Shown here piece by piece: positions 27,960 through 32,794 of a stretch of 34,576 nucleotides of DNA; the first letter of the stretch is position 1; every line of letters starts with the position of its first letter. The position numbers were made by a program, and so were the translations under genes. Under the pieces are notes generated by a model. The model was not told the DNA's origin. It made no database searches and saw only the letters and a program-made list of their open reading frames with translations. Source of the stretch: Flavobacteriales bacterium (GTDB lineage Bacteria > Bacteroidota > Bacteroidia > CAIKAF01). Location: the NCBI GenBank assembly GCA_025055575.1, contig JANWWP010000051.1, positions 1-34,576 on the forward strand, in the 5' to 3' direction.

Positions 27960-29088
27960 GCGCAAAGCTTTGGTGTGTGCGGTGAGCAGTGTTCTCTACG
28001 ACCAAAGGGTGCAACGGATGGGAGGGCTCCTGACACGGATGGGCTATGAGGTGACCCTGTACGGACGAAAATTCCGGCTCCGTGAGGCACCTCCGTCCCA
28101 CGTGGAAGGAATGGCTCTGCGTCTGGTACGACATGTGTTCAACCGGGAGGCGGTTTTTTATGCAGAATATAACCTGCGGCTTTTTTTTCATTTGCTTATC
28201 CGGAGTGATTACGCCGTTGTGGTGAGCAACGATCTGGACACTTTGCCGGCTTGCTACTTGGCGTGGAGGTGGCGGCGTTTCAAATTGATATTTGACAGCC
28301 ACGAATTGTTTTCAGAAGCGGCGGAGCTGTCCGATAACCGCCTGGCACGCCGCGTCTGGCGGGCGCTGGAACGCTGGCTGCTGCCCCGCGTGCCGGTAGG
28401 CCTCACGGTGAGCGAAAGCATACGGGCCGAGTACCGCCGGCGCTATGGCGTGGATTTCCACGTGTTGCGCAACATACCACCCCGTCTGGACCTCAGCAGC
28501 CTGCCGCTGCCGACTTTGAATTTGGATCCCTCTGTGCACTACCTGATTCTGCAAGGCACGGGCATAAACCGCGACCGAGGCGCTGAAGAAGCTGTGGAAG
28601 CTTTGGTCCATCTTCCTGAAAATTTCCATTTGATCGTGGCAGGAGACGGCGACGTTATGGAGGCCCTTATCCAGAGGGTTCGAAGCCGGCATCTGGGTCA
28701 GAGGGTACACTTTACGGGCCGGCTGCCGTACCGGCAACTGATGGCGCTCACCACCCGTTGTTGGGCAGGCCTGTCCTTAGATAAGCCCACTTGCCTGAAC
28801 TATCTCTACAGCTTGCCGAATAAGATTTTTGATTACATCCAGGCGCGCATTCCGGTGGTTGTGAGTCCGATTCCAGAGCCCGCCAAGATCGTGCTGGAAC
28901 ATGGTGTGGGGGTGGTGGCCAGGGCGGTGACTCCAGAGGCTGTGGCCGAGGCGGTGATGGCGCTCGAAAAAGCGCTGGCCCGGGATGCCGTAGGCTGGAA
29001 ACAAAGGTTGGATGCCGCCGCCCGCGCCTTGTGTCGTGAAAATGAAGAAGCCTCCTTGCTAAATTTTCTGCGTGACTACCTGGGCTGA
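27952..29088 (+). CDS. Glycosyltransferase, GT4-like
   Basis: A 378-residue GT-B-fold glycosyltransferase, without signal peptide or membrane segment, that would transfer sugar from a nucleotide donor in the cytoplasm. The N-terminal acceptor domain contains YDQRVQRMGGLLTRMGYEVTLYGR, the SNDLDTLPACYLA segment and FDSHELFSEA. The C-terminal donor domain contains the family blocks LILQGTGINRDRGAEEAVEAL, LIVAGDGD, RVHFTGRLPYRQL and LPNKIFDYIQARIPVV with the conserved Glu region PIPEPAKIV. Donor and acceptor are unknown. The ATG at 27952 (GGAAAG just upstream) overlaps rsgA by eight bases; an ATG at 27937 would add five residues. The next glycosyltransferase overlaps its end. Confidence 0.88.
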   Translation: MSKRKALVCAVSSVLYDQRVQRMGGLLTRMGYEVTLYGRKFRLREAPPSHVEGMALRLVRHVFNREAVFYAEYNLRLFFHLLIRSDYAVVVSNDLDTLPACYLAWRWRRFKLIFDSHELFSEAAELSDNRLARRVWRALERWLLPRVPVGLTVSESIRAEYRRRYGVDFHVLRNIPPRLDLSSLPLPTLNLDPSVHYLILQGTGINRDRGAEEAVEALVHLPENFHLIVAGDGDVMEALIQRVRSRHLGQRVHFTGRLPYRQLMALTTRCWAGLSLDKPTCLNYLYSLPNKIFDYIQARIPVVVSPIPEPAKIVLEHGVGVVARAVTPEAVAEAVMALEKALARDAVGWKQRLDAAARALCRENEEASLLNFLRDYLG

Positions 29089-30217
29089 AGATGTGCATCT
29101 TGTGGCACACAATGTGCCCTGGCCGCCGGACAACGGAGGCCTGATCGATGTTTTTTTCAAAATCAAGGCCTTGGCGGAGGCGGGGGCGCGGGTGCATCTG
29201 CATGCTTTTGCCTACGGACGGCAACCCGCTCCCGAACTGGAGCGGCTGTGTGCCTCGGTGCGGCTCTATCCCAGAGATAAAAATCCGGCCCGGATTCTGA
29301 GCCTGGAGCCCTTTATCGTGGCCGGAAGGCGCCCCGCGGCTTTATTGCAGGACCTGCAGCGCACAGCGCATCCGATCCTTTTTGATACCCTGCACACCAC
29401 GGCTTTCCTGGACCATCCGGCCTTGCAGGAACGGATGCGCGCGGTGCGCACCCACAATGTGGAACATCGCTATTACCGGGGACTGGCCTGCGCGGCCCGG
29501 CCGTTGATGAAGAAAGTGTATTACAGCCTCGAGGCCATAAAACTTCATCATTATGAGAAAAAGCTCCGTTCGGCCGGTTGTCTCTTTGCTATTTCTCCCG
29601 GCGAGAGGGCATATTTTGAGCGGTATGGAAAGGTGGTTTGGATTCCGCCTTTTCATCCACACACTTTGAAGTGGCCCGGAAAGACCGGAGACTTTGCCTT
29701 GTATCACGGGCACCTGGGCGTGGAGGAAAATCAGAAGGCGGCGCTGTGGCTGGTGCGCCATGTGTGGAGCCGGCCCGAGCTGCGGAAGGTGCCGCTAGTG
29801 GTGGCGGGCCAGGGCGCTCCGGCACACCTGAAGCGGCACATCCATGCTCGACCGGGGGTGACGCTGCGGGAAGACGTGACCCTGGCCGACCTGGAGGATT
29901 TGATCGGGCGGGCCCGGTTGCATGTGTTGCCCAGTTTTCAGAGTACGGGTGTGAAATTGAAGTTGATAGCGGCCCTGGCCAGTGGCCGGGCGGTGCTGGC
30001 GAACCGGCCCATGGTGGCCGGCACGGGTCTTGAAATGGCCGTGCGGGTGGCGGATGGGGTGGAAGAATTTGCCCGCCAGGCTGCCGAACTTTTTGAATTG
30101 GGCGGGATGGGGCGGGGGGACGATTGGGGGGAGCGCGAACGATTGTTTGCGGAAGTGCTGAATAATGCAAAAAATGCCGAGCGGATGCTCCGGGCACTGG
30201 CCGGGGGGGCTGCGTGA
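29072..30217 (+). CDS. Glycosyltransferase, GT4-like, second of a tandem pair
   Basis: A product of 381 residues from GTG at 29072, overlapping the previous gene by 17 bases. A second in-frame GTG at 29093, four bases past that stop, would begin the protein just before VHLVAHNVPWPPDNGG, where homologues of this type usually start, so it may be the true start. GT-B features are AHNVPWPPDNGGLIDVFFKIKALA, HNVEHRYYRGLA, and in the donor domain DFALYHGHLGVEEN, LVVAGQGAP, PGVTLREDVTLADLEDLIGRARLHVLPSFQSTGVKLKLIAALASGRAVLANR. No transmembrane segment or signal peptide is seen. Together with the upstream transferase and the epimerase it probably adds sugars to a surface polysaccharide or glycoprotein glycan. 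It is followed by the GC-rich hairpin element. Confidence 0.86.
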   Translation: MTTWAEDVHLVAHNVPWPPDNGGLIDVFFKIKALAEAGARVHLHAFAYGRQPAPELERLCASVRLYPRDKNPARILSLEPFIVAGRRPAALLQDLQRTAHPILFDTLHTTAFLDHPALQERMRAVRTHNVEHRYYRGLACAARPLMKKVYYSLEAIKLHHYEKKLRSAGCLFAISPGERAYFERYGKVVWIPPFHPHTLKWPGKTGDFALYHGHLGVEENQKAALWLVRHVWSRPELRKVPLVVAGQGAPAHLKRHIHARPGVTLREDVTLADLEDLIGRARLHVLPSFQSTGVKLKLIAALASGRAVLANRPMVAGTGLEMAVRVADGVEEFARQAAELFELGGMGRGDDWGERERLFAEVLNNAKNAERMLRALAGGAA

Positions 30218-30224
30218 GGCAGGC

Positions 30225-30355
30225 GGAGGACGCCCGGCGCAGCCGGGCGGTGCGCGGGCCTGGCAAGGCCGGAGCACGGAAGCGAGAGCGGACTCCGGAG
30301 CCACGCCGACCCCGCCGGCGGCTCAGTGGGCAGCCTCTTGGCCGGCGGGGGCACG
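30225..30355. repeat. GC-rich multi-hairpin intergenic element
   Basis: The 158-base gap between the convergent glycosyltransferase and topA genes holds very GC-rich DNA with several inverted repeats: CGCCCGGC-GCA-GCCGGGCG (30229-30247), GGCCT-GGCA-AGGCC (30258-30271), the palindrome CTCCGGAG (30293-30300) and the 10-bp arms CCCCGCCGGC (30310-30319) and GCCGGCGGGG (30341-30350) around a 21-base loop. No T-run follows on either strand, so none is a classical terminator. Composition and structure set it apart from the AT-rich spacers elsewhere in the window. A dispersed repeat or structured 3' end is possible. Confidence 0.55.
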
Positions 30356-30375
30356 CCCAAAAACTTGAAAATTAA

Positions 30376-32757
30376 TTATTTTTTGCTGCGACGCCGCACA
30401 GATTTGGCCGGACGCTCGGAGGCTTCGGCCGCAAGAGCCTGGACTTCATTCAAACTGAGCGCGGAGGGATCGGAGACGGTTTTGGGAATCTTGAAATTGT
30501 TTTTCCCATCGGTGATGTAGGGGCCAAAGCGGCCGCGCAGGATGCGCAGGGGGCTGCCTTCAAATTCTTTGATGACGCGGGAAGCCTCGCTGTCGGCCTT
30601 GGCGCGTATGAGTTCGATGGCTTGTTCCAGGGTGCAGGTGTGGGGGTCGGATCCGCGGGGCATAGAAATGAATTTGCCGCCCCAACGGACAAAGGGGCCG
30701 AAGCGACCGAGGCCGACGGCCACTTCCTGGCCTTCGTGGGTGCCCAGGATTTTGGGTAATTCGAAGAGGCTCAGCGCCTGCTCCAGGGTGACCGATTCCA
30801 AGCGCCAGTCTTTTTTGAGCGGGGCAAAGCGGGGTTTTTCGTTGTGATCGCCATCGCCGATTTGCACAACGGGTCCGAAACGGCCAATGAGGGCATAGAC
30901 ATTCTGGCCGGTTTTGGGGTCGGTGCCGAGCAGGCGGCGTCCTTTCACTTTTTGGGAATTCTTTTCGGTGGCCAGCACGGTGTCGTGAAAGGGCCGGTAA
31001 AAGGCGTCCAGCATGCGCGTCCACTCCAAACGGCCTTCGGCAATGATGTCAAATTCTTTTTCCACTTCGGCCGTAAATCCGTAATCCATTATGCGGGGGA
31101 AGTTTTGCATCAGGAAGTCGGTGACCAGGATGCCCATATCGGTGGGAAACAGTTTGCCTTTTTCGGCGCCTGTGATTTCGATACGTTCCTGGCGGCGCAG
31201 GTGGCCTTCCTTGAGTTCGATGGCCACGTAAGGCCGTTCCACGCCTTCGCTGTCTTTTTTTTCCACATAGCCGCGCTGCTGAATGGTGTTGATGGTGGGA
31301 GCGTACGTGCTGGGCCGGCCGATGCCCAGCTCTTCCAGTTTGCGCACCAGAGAGGCTTCCGTATAGCGCGGGGGCAGGGAGGAGAAGCGCTGGCGGGCCA
31401 AAGCTGATTCCAATTGGAGCGGGTCTCCTGTTTGCAGAAGCGGCAGGGCCTGGTCGGGGGTTGAGTCGTCGCCGGAGTCTTCGTTGTCTTCTTCTTCGCG
31501 GGCTTCTTCGTACACTTTGAGGAATCCGTCGAAGCGGATGGCTTCGCCGCGGGCAATAAATTTTTTTTCAAAGCCGGGGGCGCCAATCACGACGCGGGTT
31601 TTTTCCAGTTCGGCATCGGCCATCTGGCAGGCTACGGTGCGTTGCCAGATGAGCTGGTACAGCCGGCGCAGGGCAGGGTCGCCTTCCACCTGACGTACGG
31701 TGATATCGGTGGGTCGTATGGCTTCGTGGGCTTCCTGGGCGCCCTTGGTGCGGGTGGTGAATTGACGGCGGCGGTGATACTTTTCGCCAAACGCCGACCG
31801 AACAAAGGTTTCTGCGGCCTGCAGGGCGTCTTCGGAAAGATTCACCGAGTCGGTGCGCATATAGGTGATTTTCCCTTCTTCGTAGAGCTGCTGGGCCAAG
31901 CGCATGGTACGCGTGACGGAAAAACCCAGGCGGCGGGAGGCTTCCTGCTGGAGCGTGCTGGTGGTGAAGGGCGGCGCAGGACTGCGGCGGGCGGGCTTCA
32001 CTTCCAGAGTTTCTACAGTAAAACCCTGACCTGCGCCTTGGGAAGCGCTTTTTTCCGGAAAGGCGGCAATCCGTTCGGAGAGGCTTTCCATCAGGCGGGA
32101 GGCCTGAGCTTCGTCCGGAATTTTTTCTTCTACTTCAGCCCTGAATTTTTTGCCTTGGCTGTTGCGGAAAACAGCCGACAGCCGAAACCAGCTTTCCACC
32201 GGGGTGGCGGCGCGTTCTCTTTCGCGCTCCACGATCAGCCGCACGGCCACCGACTGCACGCGGCCGGCCGATAGGTTGGGCTTTACTTTTTTCCATAGAA
32301 GAGGGGATACTTCATAACCCACCAGCCTGTCCAGAATGCGACGGGCTTGCTGGGCCATCACCAGATCCATATCGATCTGGCGCGGCGATTCGATGGCTTT
32401 TTGGATGGCTTTGGGGGTGATTTCGTTGAAAACGATGCGCCGTGTGTCCTTTTTGCTGAGATTCAGAGTTTCGTACAAATGCCAGGCGATGGCTTCTCCC
32501 TCCCGGTCCTCATCGCTGGCCAGCCACACGATATCCGCTTTTTGGACGTTCTTTTTCAGTTCCTCGATCACTTTTTTCTTGTCGGGACTGATTTCATAAA
32601 TGGGCTGGAAGTTATCGTCAATTTTGACAGAGAGTCCCTTTTCAGAGAGGTCGCGCACATGGCCAAATGAACTTTTTACCACGAAATCCTTTCCTAAAAA
32701 GCCTTCAATGGTTTTGGCCTTGGCCGGCGATTCCACTATCACAAGATTTTTGGCCAT
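30376..32757 (-). CDS. topA: DNA topoisomerase I (type IA)
   Basis: Relaxes negatively supercoiled DNA by cutting one strand. The 793-residue product begins with a Toprim domain (VIVESPAKAKTI at 6-17, ASDEDREGEA with the acidic DxDxE at 82-86), followed by the type IA core with the catalytic Tyr299 in ITYMRTDSVNLS. The LSAGRVQSVAVRLI block and GIGRPSTYAPTI are present. The C-terminal part has no Cys4 zinc fingers but repeated GRFGP units (ALIGRFGPVVQIG, VGLGRFGPFVRWG, LRGRFGPYITDG), as in Bacteroidota and other zinc-less enzymes. It ends in a basic tail. An in-frame TTG at 32784 would add nine non-conserved residues; ATG at 32757 fits the family start MAKNLVIVESP. It follows kmo by 90 bases on the same strand. 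Confidence 0.97.
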   Translation of the reverse strand: MAKNLVIVESPAKAKTIEGFLGKDFVVKSSFGHVRDLSEKGLSVKIDDNFQPIYEISPDKKKVIEELKKNVQKADIVWLASDEDREGEAIAWHLYETLNLSKKDTRRIVFNEITPKAIQKAIESPRQIDMDLVMAQQARRILDRLVGYEVSPLLWKKVKPNLSAGRVQSVAVRLIVERERERAATPVESWFRLSAVFRNSQGKKFRAEVEEKIPDEAQASRLMESLSERIAAFPEKSASQGAGQGFTVETLEVKPARRSPAPPFTTSTLQQEASRRLGFSVTRTMRLAQQLYEEGKITYMRTDSVNLSEDALQAAETFVRSAFGEKYHRRRQFTTRTKGAQEAHEAIRPTDITVRQVEGDPALRRLYQLIWQRTVACQMADAELEKTRVVIGAPGFEKKFIARGEAIRFDGFLKVYEEAREEEDNEDSGDDSTPDQALPLLQTGDPLQLESALARQRFSSLPPRYTEASLVRKLEELGIGRPSTYAPTINTIQQRGYVEKKDSEGVERPYVAIELKEGHLRRQERIEITGAEKGKLFPTDMGILVTDFLMQNFPRIMDYGFTAEVEKEFDIIAEGRLEWTRMLDAFYRPFHDTVLATEKNSQKVKGRRLLGTDPKTGQNVYALIGRFGPVVQIGDGDHNEKPRFAPLKKDWRLESVTLEQALSLFELPKILGTHEGQEVAVGLGRFGPFVRWGGKFISMPRGSDPHTCTLEQAIELIRAKADSEASRVIKEFEGSPLRILRGRFGPYITDGKNNFKIPKTVSDPSALSLNEVQALAAEASERPAKSVRRRSKK

Positions 32758-32794
32758 AGACGAGAGGGGGTGTGCAGAGGGCAAAATAACGCTC

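Follow-up and report, generated by a model that had tools for sequence, protein, structure and literature searches.

Among bacteria, dispersed structured repeats are known chiefly from enterobacteria, pseudomonads and pneumococci, and the BOX elements found in pneumococci are both modular and structured. ERIC repeats of enterobacteria and Vibrio are described as dispersed, intergenic, structured elements of ~127 bp that form a single long stem-loop, and in Yersinia they are said to regulate neighbouring genes via RNA hairpins (PMC2267715). REPs are described as hairpins of 20-40 bp that carry a GTAG or CGTC tag, the CGTC stems being 8-9 bp long, and repeats of the CGTC type are reported from Bacteroidetes and Spirochaetes without a known transposase (PMC3733652). 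BOX elements of Streptococcus pneumoniae are described as interspersed small repeats (PMC3049150), and comparative genomics of human microbiomes is reported to have yielded palindromic candidate structured RNAs, some of them in Bacteroidetes (PMC8040213). Here we analyze a stretch of 34,576 nucleotides (the window) that spans positions 1 to 34,576 of contig JANWWP010000051.1 from a Flavobacteriales bacterium (assembly GCA_025055575.1), in which a GC-rich tract at 30212-30358 belongs to a family whose fold covaries, whose subfamilies are specific to single genomes, which is spread patchily over two phyla and which is constrained at one orthologous site. The explanation we place first, with about even confidence, is that this tract is one copy of a REP- or ERIC-like dispersed structured repeat family whose copies multiply inside genomes and at some sites have come under selection as 3'-end elements.

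The family has the properties of a dispersed structured intergenic repeat, namely many copies, an extragenic position, a common fold and compensatory change. Like ERIC, as described, it is dispersed, intergenic and structured, but in place of a single stem-loop it is multi-branched, with a closing stem and a separate last hairpin, and it differs in sequence and in hosts (Bacteroidota and Spirochaetota). REP and REPIN repeats of the GTAG and CGTC super-families are by their descriptions likewise extragenic, structured and often species-specific, and those of the CGTC type share the lack of a known transposase, whereas the window family is 100-190 nt long, has several helices, ends in GCGTG/CACGC and lacks the hairpin-and-tag form that marks a REP; it further differs from REPs and REPINs with RAYT in that Y1_Tnp genes do not track its presence. 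BOX elements, from another phylum and of another sequence, are set apart by description rather than by computation. No Rfam 15 family matches the window at the gathering threshold and, at E <= 1 in 18 + 11 loci, none overlaps an element; in the literature, the titles and opening lines of abstracts contain no description of the family, a scope outside which lie most subscription papers, bioRxiv and supplements. We regard it as a family new among dispersed structured repeats, whose fold is unusually complex and recurs widely. The human-microbiome candidates are likewise structured and in part from Bacteroidetes, and the family may be identical with one of them.

Searched by blastn against its own genome, the window tract matches the C23 copy (E 2.1e-12) and the C29 copy (E 7.4e-12), and a second tract at 256-347 of the window retrieves many more own-genome copies than these two. 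Two covariance models were built, R1 from eight canonical copies and R2 from 86 copies (85 distinct, from many genomes). R1 finds 16 canonical copies in the source genome at E <= 2.5e-14, and the eight of these that lie outside its training set score 98-115 bits; the window copy, with which R1 was not trained, scores 26.7 bits (E 0.13 per genome). R2 finds 18 own-genome copies at E <= 3.6e-4, all 18 of which belong to its training set, the window copy included; the C29 copy is not among them. Both models stop early in long terminal hairpins, and 3' ends in the source genome were reset by pattern. The first-pass annotation had proposed a dispersed, structured family in this genome, to be pursued by blastn and a covariance model and to be given up if neither further copies nor compensatory changes appeared; both approaches returned further copies, 18 with R2 plus the degenerate one at 256-347, and compensatory changes are present among the 86.

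One strand of the family reads 5' GCGTGAGGGAT...CACGCCC 3'. The model fold comprises a closing stem, GCGTG/CACGC, a branched arm and a separate, variable last hairpin. The arm takes the form GGG-A-TGC-GGA-GGGC / GCCC-GGA-GCA-G-CCC with purine-only internal loops and includes a GC-GNNA-GC mini-hairpin, while its side hairpins vary in length, one of them showing a CCCTGAGCCC/GGGCGAAGGG tandem G-A pattern in canonical copies. Across the 86 copies, 94.2% of cells are paired as compared with 82.4% in shuffles, in an alignment that was fitted to the model and so favours it in this test; two-sided changes occur at 32 of the 40 pairs, and sliding the partners lowers the paired cells to 35-51%. For two spirochaete copies folded singly, the minimum-energy structures match the model in part.

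The window copy lies on the + strand, reads GCGTGAGG...GGGGCACGCCC and represents a subtype common to the C23 and C29 copies, in which GGC/GCC + GGC/GCC replaces the canonical GGG/CCC + TGC/GCA. Its closing stem P1 pairs GCGTG at 30212-30216 with CACGC at 30352-30356, a helix whose equivalent is paired in 95.2% of cells among the 86 copies; between these strands lie the P2 arm with its side hairpins (30218-30307), which carries the GGC/GCC pairs, GGA internal loops and a GC-GAGA-GC mini-hairpin, and the variable terminal hairpin CCCCGCCGGC...GCCGGCGGGG (30310-30350). Folding predicts four to five helices, GC content is 80% over the element against 54% for the whole window, and no T-run was seen by eye after the hairpins on either strand, all of which agrees with the earlier description of at least four dyads in GC-rich DNA free of T-runs; the extent then given, 30225-30355, falls within the element but is slightly too narrow. 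Folding energy is unremarkable for the composition, with z-scores of -0.75 (+) and -1.30 (-) over 30215-30360 and of -1.27 (+) and -1.14 (-) over the exact element; it is the comparative evidence that carries the case for this tract. The element occupies the gap between two convergent genes, a + strand glycosyltransferase gene (Glyco_trans_1_4, 29072-30217), whose stop codon at 30215-30217 (GCG TGA) overlaps the 5' strand of P1 within the first bases of the element, and topA on the - strand (30376-32784), from whose stop codon it is separated by a 17-nt A-rich spacer (30359-30375) that is T-rich on the topA-sense strand.

The second tract is likely a degenerate, nineteenth copy in this genome, also on the + strand, that has lost its central helices. 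It matches the family copy on C59 by blastn (E 1.0e-6) and ranks nineteenth with R2, which was built without it, at 23.2 bits (E 0.17 per genome, or 0.01 in a smaller set). R2 aligns to 256-347, and GCCCGCCCA at 351-359 could represent the original 3' end of the copy, which would extend the tract to 359 and bring it to 15 nt from the A2M stop codon rather than the 27 nt measured from the model end. Folded alone, 256-347 does not show the family shape. The first-pass annotation had related 292-345 to the main tract through a hand alignment with 17 of 24 matches; the relation probably stands by way of the family, whereas the direct resemblance does not reach significance, as a local alignment of the two tracts is equalled by 142 of 1000 dinucleotide shuffles. 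Its further remark that both tracts lie 3' of a minus-strand gene in the same orientation is borne out. Unrelated GC-rich spacers that are alike by chance would be compatible with this weak direct similarity and with the small z-scores of the window copy, but family matches at E 1e-12, the scores of the eight canonical copies outside R1 training and the covariation have already refuted this idea, and we give it next to no credence.

Beyond the source genome, the distribution is patchy. R1 is positive in 5 of 40 genomes, the source genome included, and congeners of a positive genome lack the element; R2 is positive in 25 of 247 sampled genomes of the same class (source genome included; 17 of 141 genera) and in 51 of 247 sampled from the phylum to which a Treponema genome belongs (Spirochaetota), these class and phylum scans having scored at most 13 candidates per genome, so that their copy numbers are lower bounds. 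At E <= 0.01, R1 counts 38 copies in Schleiferia thermophila, 23 in Thermaurantimonas aggregans, 44 in Bacteroidia SKW94 and 17 in the congener G001, which by shared coordinates is Flavobacteriales SKYG26, and among the matches listed further named holders are Chitinophagaceae UBA4857 (17) and three Treponema metagenome-assembled genomes (3-7); Chryseobacterium carries 1-3 per genome (14 genomes searched). Spirochaete copies score 60-82 bits with R2. Pattern matches in Burkholderiales, Acetobacteraceae and two actinobacteria score 17-21 bits and one in Deltaproteobacteria gives no score, and these were taken as chance because every such match contains the 18 searched bases by construction; a match in Anaerolineales is borderline (26.8 bits, E 0.0012). 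When 101 copies from six genomes were all compared with one another, 99 had their closest relative within the same genome, which suggests that copies have been amplified or converted within genomes.

Patchiness and genome-specific subfamilies are what would be expected of a purely selfish, non-autonomous mobile element whose fold serves its own mobilization, as single-stranded DNA or RNA, and which is found behind genes because other insertions are purged. A preference for folding on the + strand and an A-rich 3' junction that is partly in register, both described below, are compatible with this account as well. We nevertheless consider it the less probable explanation, though a serious one, since one orthologous site in Chryseobacterium retains its copy in nearly every locus, the core there changes almost as slowly as first codon positions, and these genomes hold so few copies. 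Nor did the few searches made of mobile DNA reveal the element: blastn of plasmids with two query copies and of phages with one, and a search of viral contigs with the exact 5' pattern, returned no match, although these searches would miss diverged copies.

The Chryseobacterium site lies behind an aldehyde dehydrogenase gene that was detected at E <= 1e-200 in 53 of 59 sampled genomes, 50 of these 53 loci being examined. An R2 element follows the gene in 47 of the 50, at 9-16 nt from the stop codon in 45 loci and at 134 and 275 nt in the other two; of the three loci without one, L381 has nothing, and L283 and L390 resemble remnants by eye. Identity is 91.2% in the P1/P2 core and 90.2% in P5, falling to 74.2% in the P3/P4 region and 71.3% in the terminal hairpin, with reference values of 94.5, 98.0 and 57.2% for the three codon positions, 44.4% for four-fold sites and 43.4% for the spacer beyond the element. 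Two-sided compensatory change was found in 50 cells among the orthologues, compared with 9.8 in shuffles. The retention of the element behind the same gene in nearly every Chryseobacterium genome examined indicates that it probably does something useful there.

Placement relative to genes was surveyed with a codon-based gene caller in four genomes, using 20 of 38 copies from Schleiferia, 20 of 23 from Thermaurantimonas, 20 of 44 from SKW94, all three sets drawn from among the high-scoring copies, together with 19 from the source genome; a copy lacking a called neighbour on one side was left out there, which removed 3 of 79 for the 3' side and 17 of 79 for the 5' side. The stop codon of a converging gene lies within 100 nt of the element 3' end in 45 of 76 cases (Schleiferia 16/19, Thermaurantimonas 11/20, SKW94 6/19, source genome 12/18), compared with 6 of 62 cases for the 5' side (1/15, 1/18, 0/16 and 4/13, respectively), and in three of the four genomes tested the element is thus placed against gene 3' ends. 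The earlier alternative of conserved 3'-end elements accordingly holds for the family, as these own-genome counts illustrate; for the topA copy itself conservation was not seen, R1 finding no element at that locus in seven relatives.

In Schleiferia, Thermaurantimonas, SKW94 and the source genome the + strand is rich in A at the 3' junction, where the T fraction of the other strand is 0.57-0.76 as opposed to 0.23-0.38 on the 5' side; the contrast (3'/5') is weaker in G004 (0.50/0.42), in G001 (0.34/0.26, with poorly resolved 3' ends) and at the Chryseobacterium site (0.54/0.42). This flank survey dropped copies with flanks shorter than 80 nt and kept 17 of 20 in SKW94, 18 of 19 in the source genome and 8 of 9 in G004. 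A tendency toward AAATAAA follows CACGCCC in register in three genomes, with T at position 4 in 10, 12 and 13 of 20 copies. The arrangement of an intrinsic terminator, a GC hairpin followed by a T-run, is thus not seen, the + strand being A-rich on its 3' side and the T-rich stretch preceding the element on the other strand. The position of the window copy between convergent genes would suit a bidirectional transcription terminator, and a terminator-like hairpin stands before 5 of 20 Schleiferia copies and 3 of 20 Thermaurantimonas copies, but we consider this role improbable given that the window hairpins have no T-run on either strand, that many copies sit between co-directional genes and that the conserved core far exceeds what a terminator needs. 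Such hairpins precede the element in 0/17 SKW94, 2/18 own-genome, 1/8 G004, 1/13 G001 and 0/47 Chryseobacterium copies, and an intrinsic terminator before the element was rejected as a general rule.

On the 5' side, further repeat modules are common to SKW94 and some own-genome copies. In SKW94 (L359-L378) other repeat modules often precede the element, and about three kinds of them recur immediately upstream, while in the source genome L044, L051, L054, L055 and L056, several of them near contig ends, have shared 5' sequence, with CAGCCACCGCG-type short repeats before several copies. A short palindromic repeat, ATTGCTTCGCTTCG...GCAATGACG, similar to known CGTC-type repeats, stands between the element and the next gene at L092, L096, L110, L114 and L134. 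Two own-genome copies have a tRNA gene within ~60 nt (L002 1632-1715 and L034 1682-1756), and a thiamine pyrophosphate (TPP) riboswitch lies ~50 nt from the C34 copy (L025 1301-1401, - strand).

In our preferred explanation, a REP- or ERIC-like repeat selected in places as a 3'-end element, the family would spread, or be homogenized, inside genomes as a non-autonomous element by means of some factor and would settle best behind genes, where harm is small. The transcribed 3' region would then carry a very stable multi-helix structure that, as has been suggested for REP and ERIC repeats, may slow both 3'-to-5' exonucleases and read-through from one gene into the next, and this role could have become selected at some sites, such as that behind the Chryseobacterium aldehyde dehydrogenase gene.

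Several observations weigh against this explanation, of which the first concerns the strand. In well-paired columns of eight sets, G-U exceeds A-C on the + strand by 67:21 (weakest in SKW94, 6:5), in a test that leans on models with RNA priors and on same-genome copies that are not independent; the 47 Chryseobacterium orthologues give 35:14, with 16 of the 35 G-U cells at one terminal pair. The G-U-rich A5 set (69:30), whose loci come from a pattern with fixed 5' bases, was left out of the strand conclusion. In 134 of 151 copies the free energy is also lower for the + strand, which a G-rich make-up alone could favour, and so is the z-score in 8 of 8 single copies, including the window copy, an own-genome canonical copy (-4.31) and a Chryseobacterium copy (-5.26). 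Together these data point to the + strand, antisense to the nearest converging gene, as the one that folds, as RNA or single-stranded DNA, a result that fits poorly with a plain 3'-untranslated-region role for the converging gene and is the main evidence that partly argues against it. Gene starts, moreover, are the 3' neighbours in 12 of 19 SKW94 copies, and R1 finds no element at the topA locus of seven relatives, a congener included. The support for constraint comes only from one Chryseobacterium locus and not from the window copy, and there the slow change may reflect selection or repeated conversion from a second copy, which could mimic constraint. Finally, we infer mobility of the family from its distribution: no mobilizing protein was found with PF01797, the one family tested, and in the printed flanks no target duplication was noticed by eye, in a check that was not systematic, and no insertion junction was resolved. 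Of the terminal inverted repeats and target-site duplications that characterize MITEs of DDE transposons, the element thus displays at most the former, in the shape of only 5 bp, GCGTG/CACGC.

Two points of detail attach to these negatives. At topA, two genomes of another genus (G011 and G013; L237 and L238) carry a different GC-rich repeat, GGCGCCCGGATGGAACGGAAAGCCCGGAGCAC...GCGCCCC followed by A-rich sequence, 16 nt behind the stop codon, with 31 and 24 blastn matches there (some partial), 1-5 in four other genomes of that genus and none in the source genome. A link to RAYT or Y1_Tnp was rejected: PF01797 is absent from G004, which has 10 R1 copies, and present in 31 of 40 genomes as against 5 of 40 for the element; the source genome has a single Y1_Tnp match (G000:C8:44237-44581), to which no link with the element was found.

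The strand asymmetry would also be expected if the copies were small RNA genes in their own right, transcribed from the + strand toward the converging gene, and the internal loops made up only of purines and the GNNA-type loop that this strand carries, together with a long 5' gap to the next gene, are consistent with such genes. The Bacteroidota -7 promoter consensus is TAnnTTTG, and this motif is absent from the 60 nt upstream in all 144 copies scanned; combined with the A-rich 3' side, which has no T-run, its absence disfavours ordinary small RNA genes, and the 5' flanks of the 20 Schleiferia copies, which show no blastn similarity to one another, likewise count against them. We hold this alternative to be unlikely. 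Marginally less likely still is a structured RNA class common to Bacteroidota and Spirochaetota whose members act as RNA and also propagate as RNA, in which an A-tailed + strand transcript would be copied back next to T-rich gene ends, in the manner of short interspersed elements (SINEs), and resident copies would be taken over as selected 3'-end RNA elements.

The family presents one recognizable fold in two phyla with no Rfam 15 match in the loci searched. Its distribution amounts to a natural experiment, with dozens of copies in some hosts set against the 1-3 detected copies under strong constraint in others, and the Chryseobacterium aldehyde dehydrogenase site makes the question of whether such a repeat is selfish or useful testable at a single locus.
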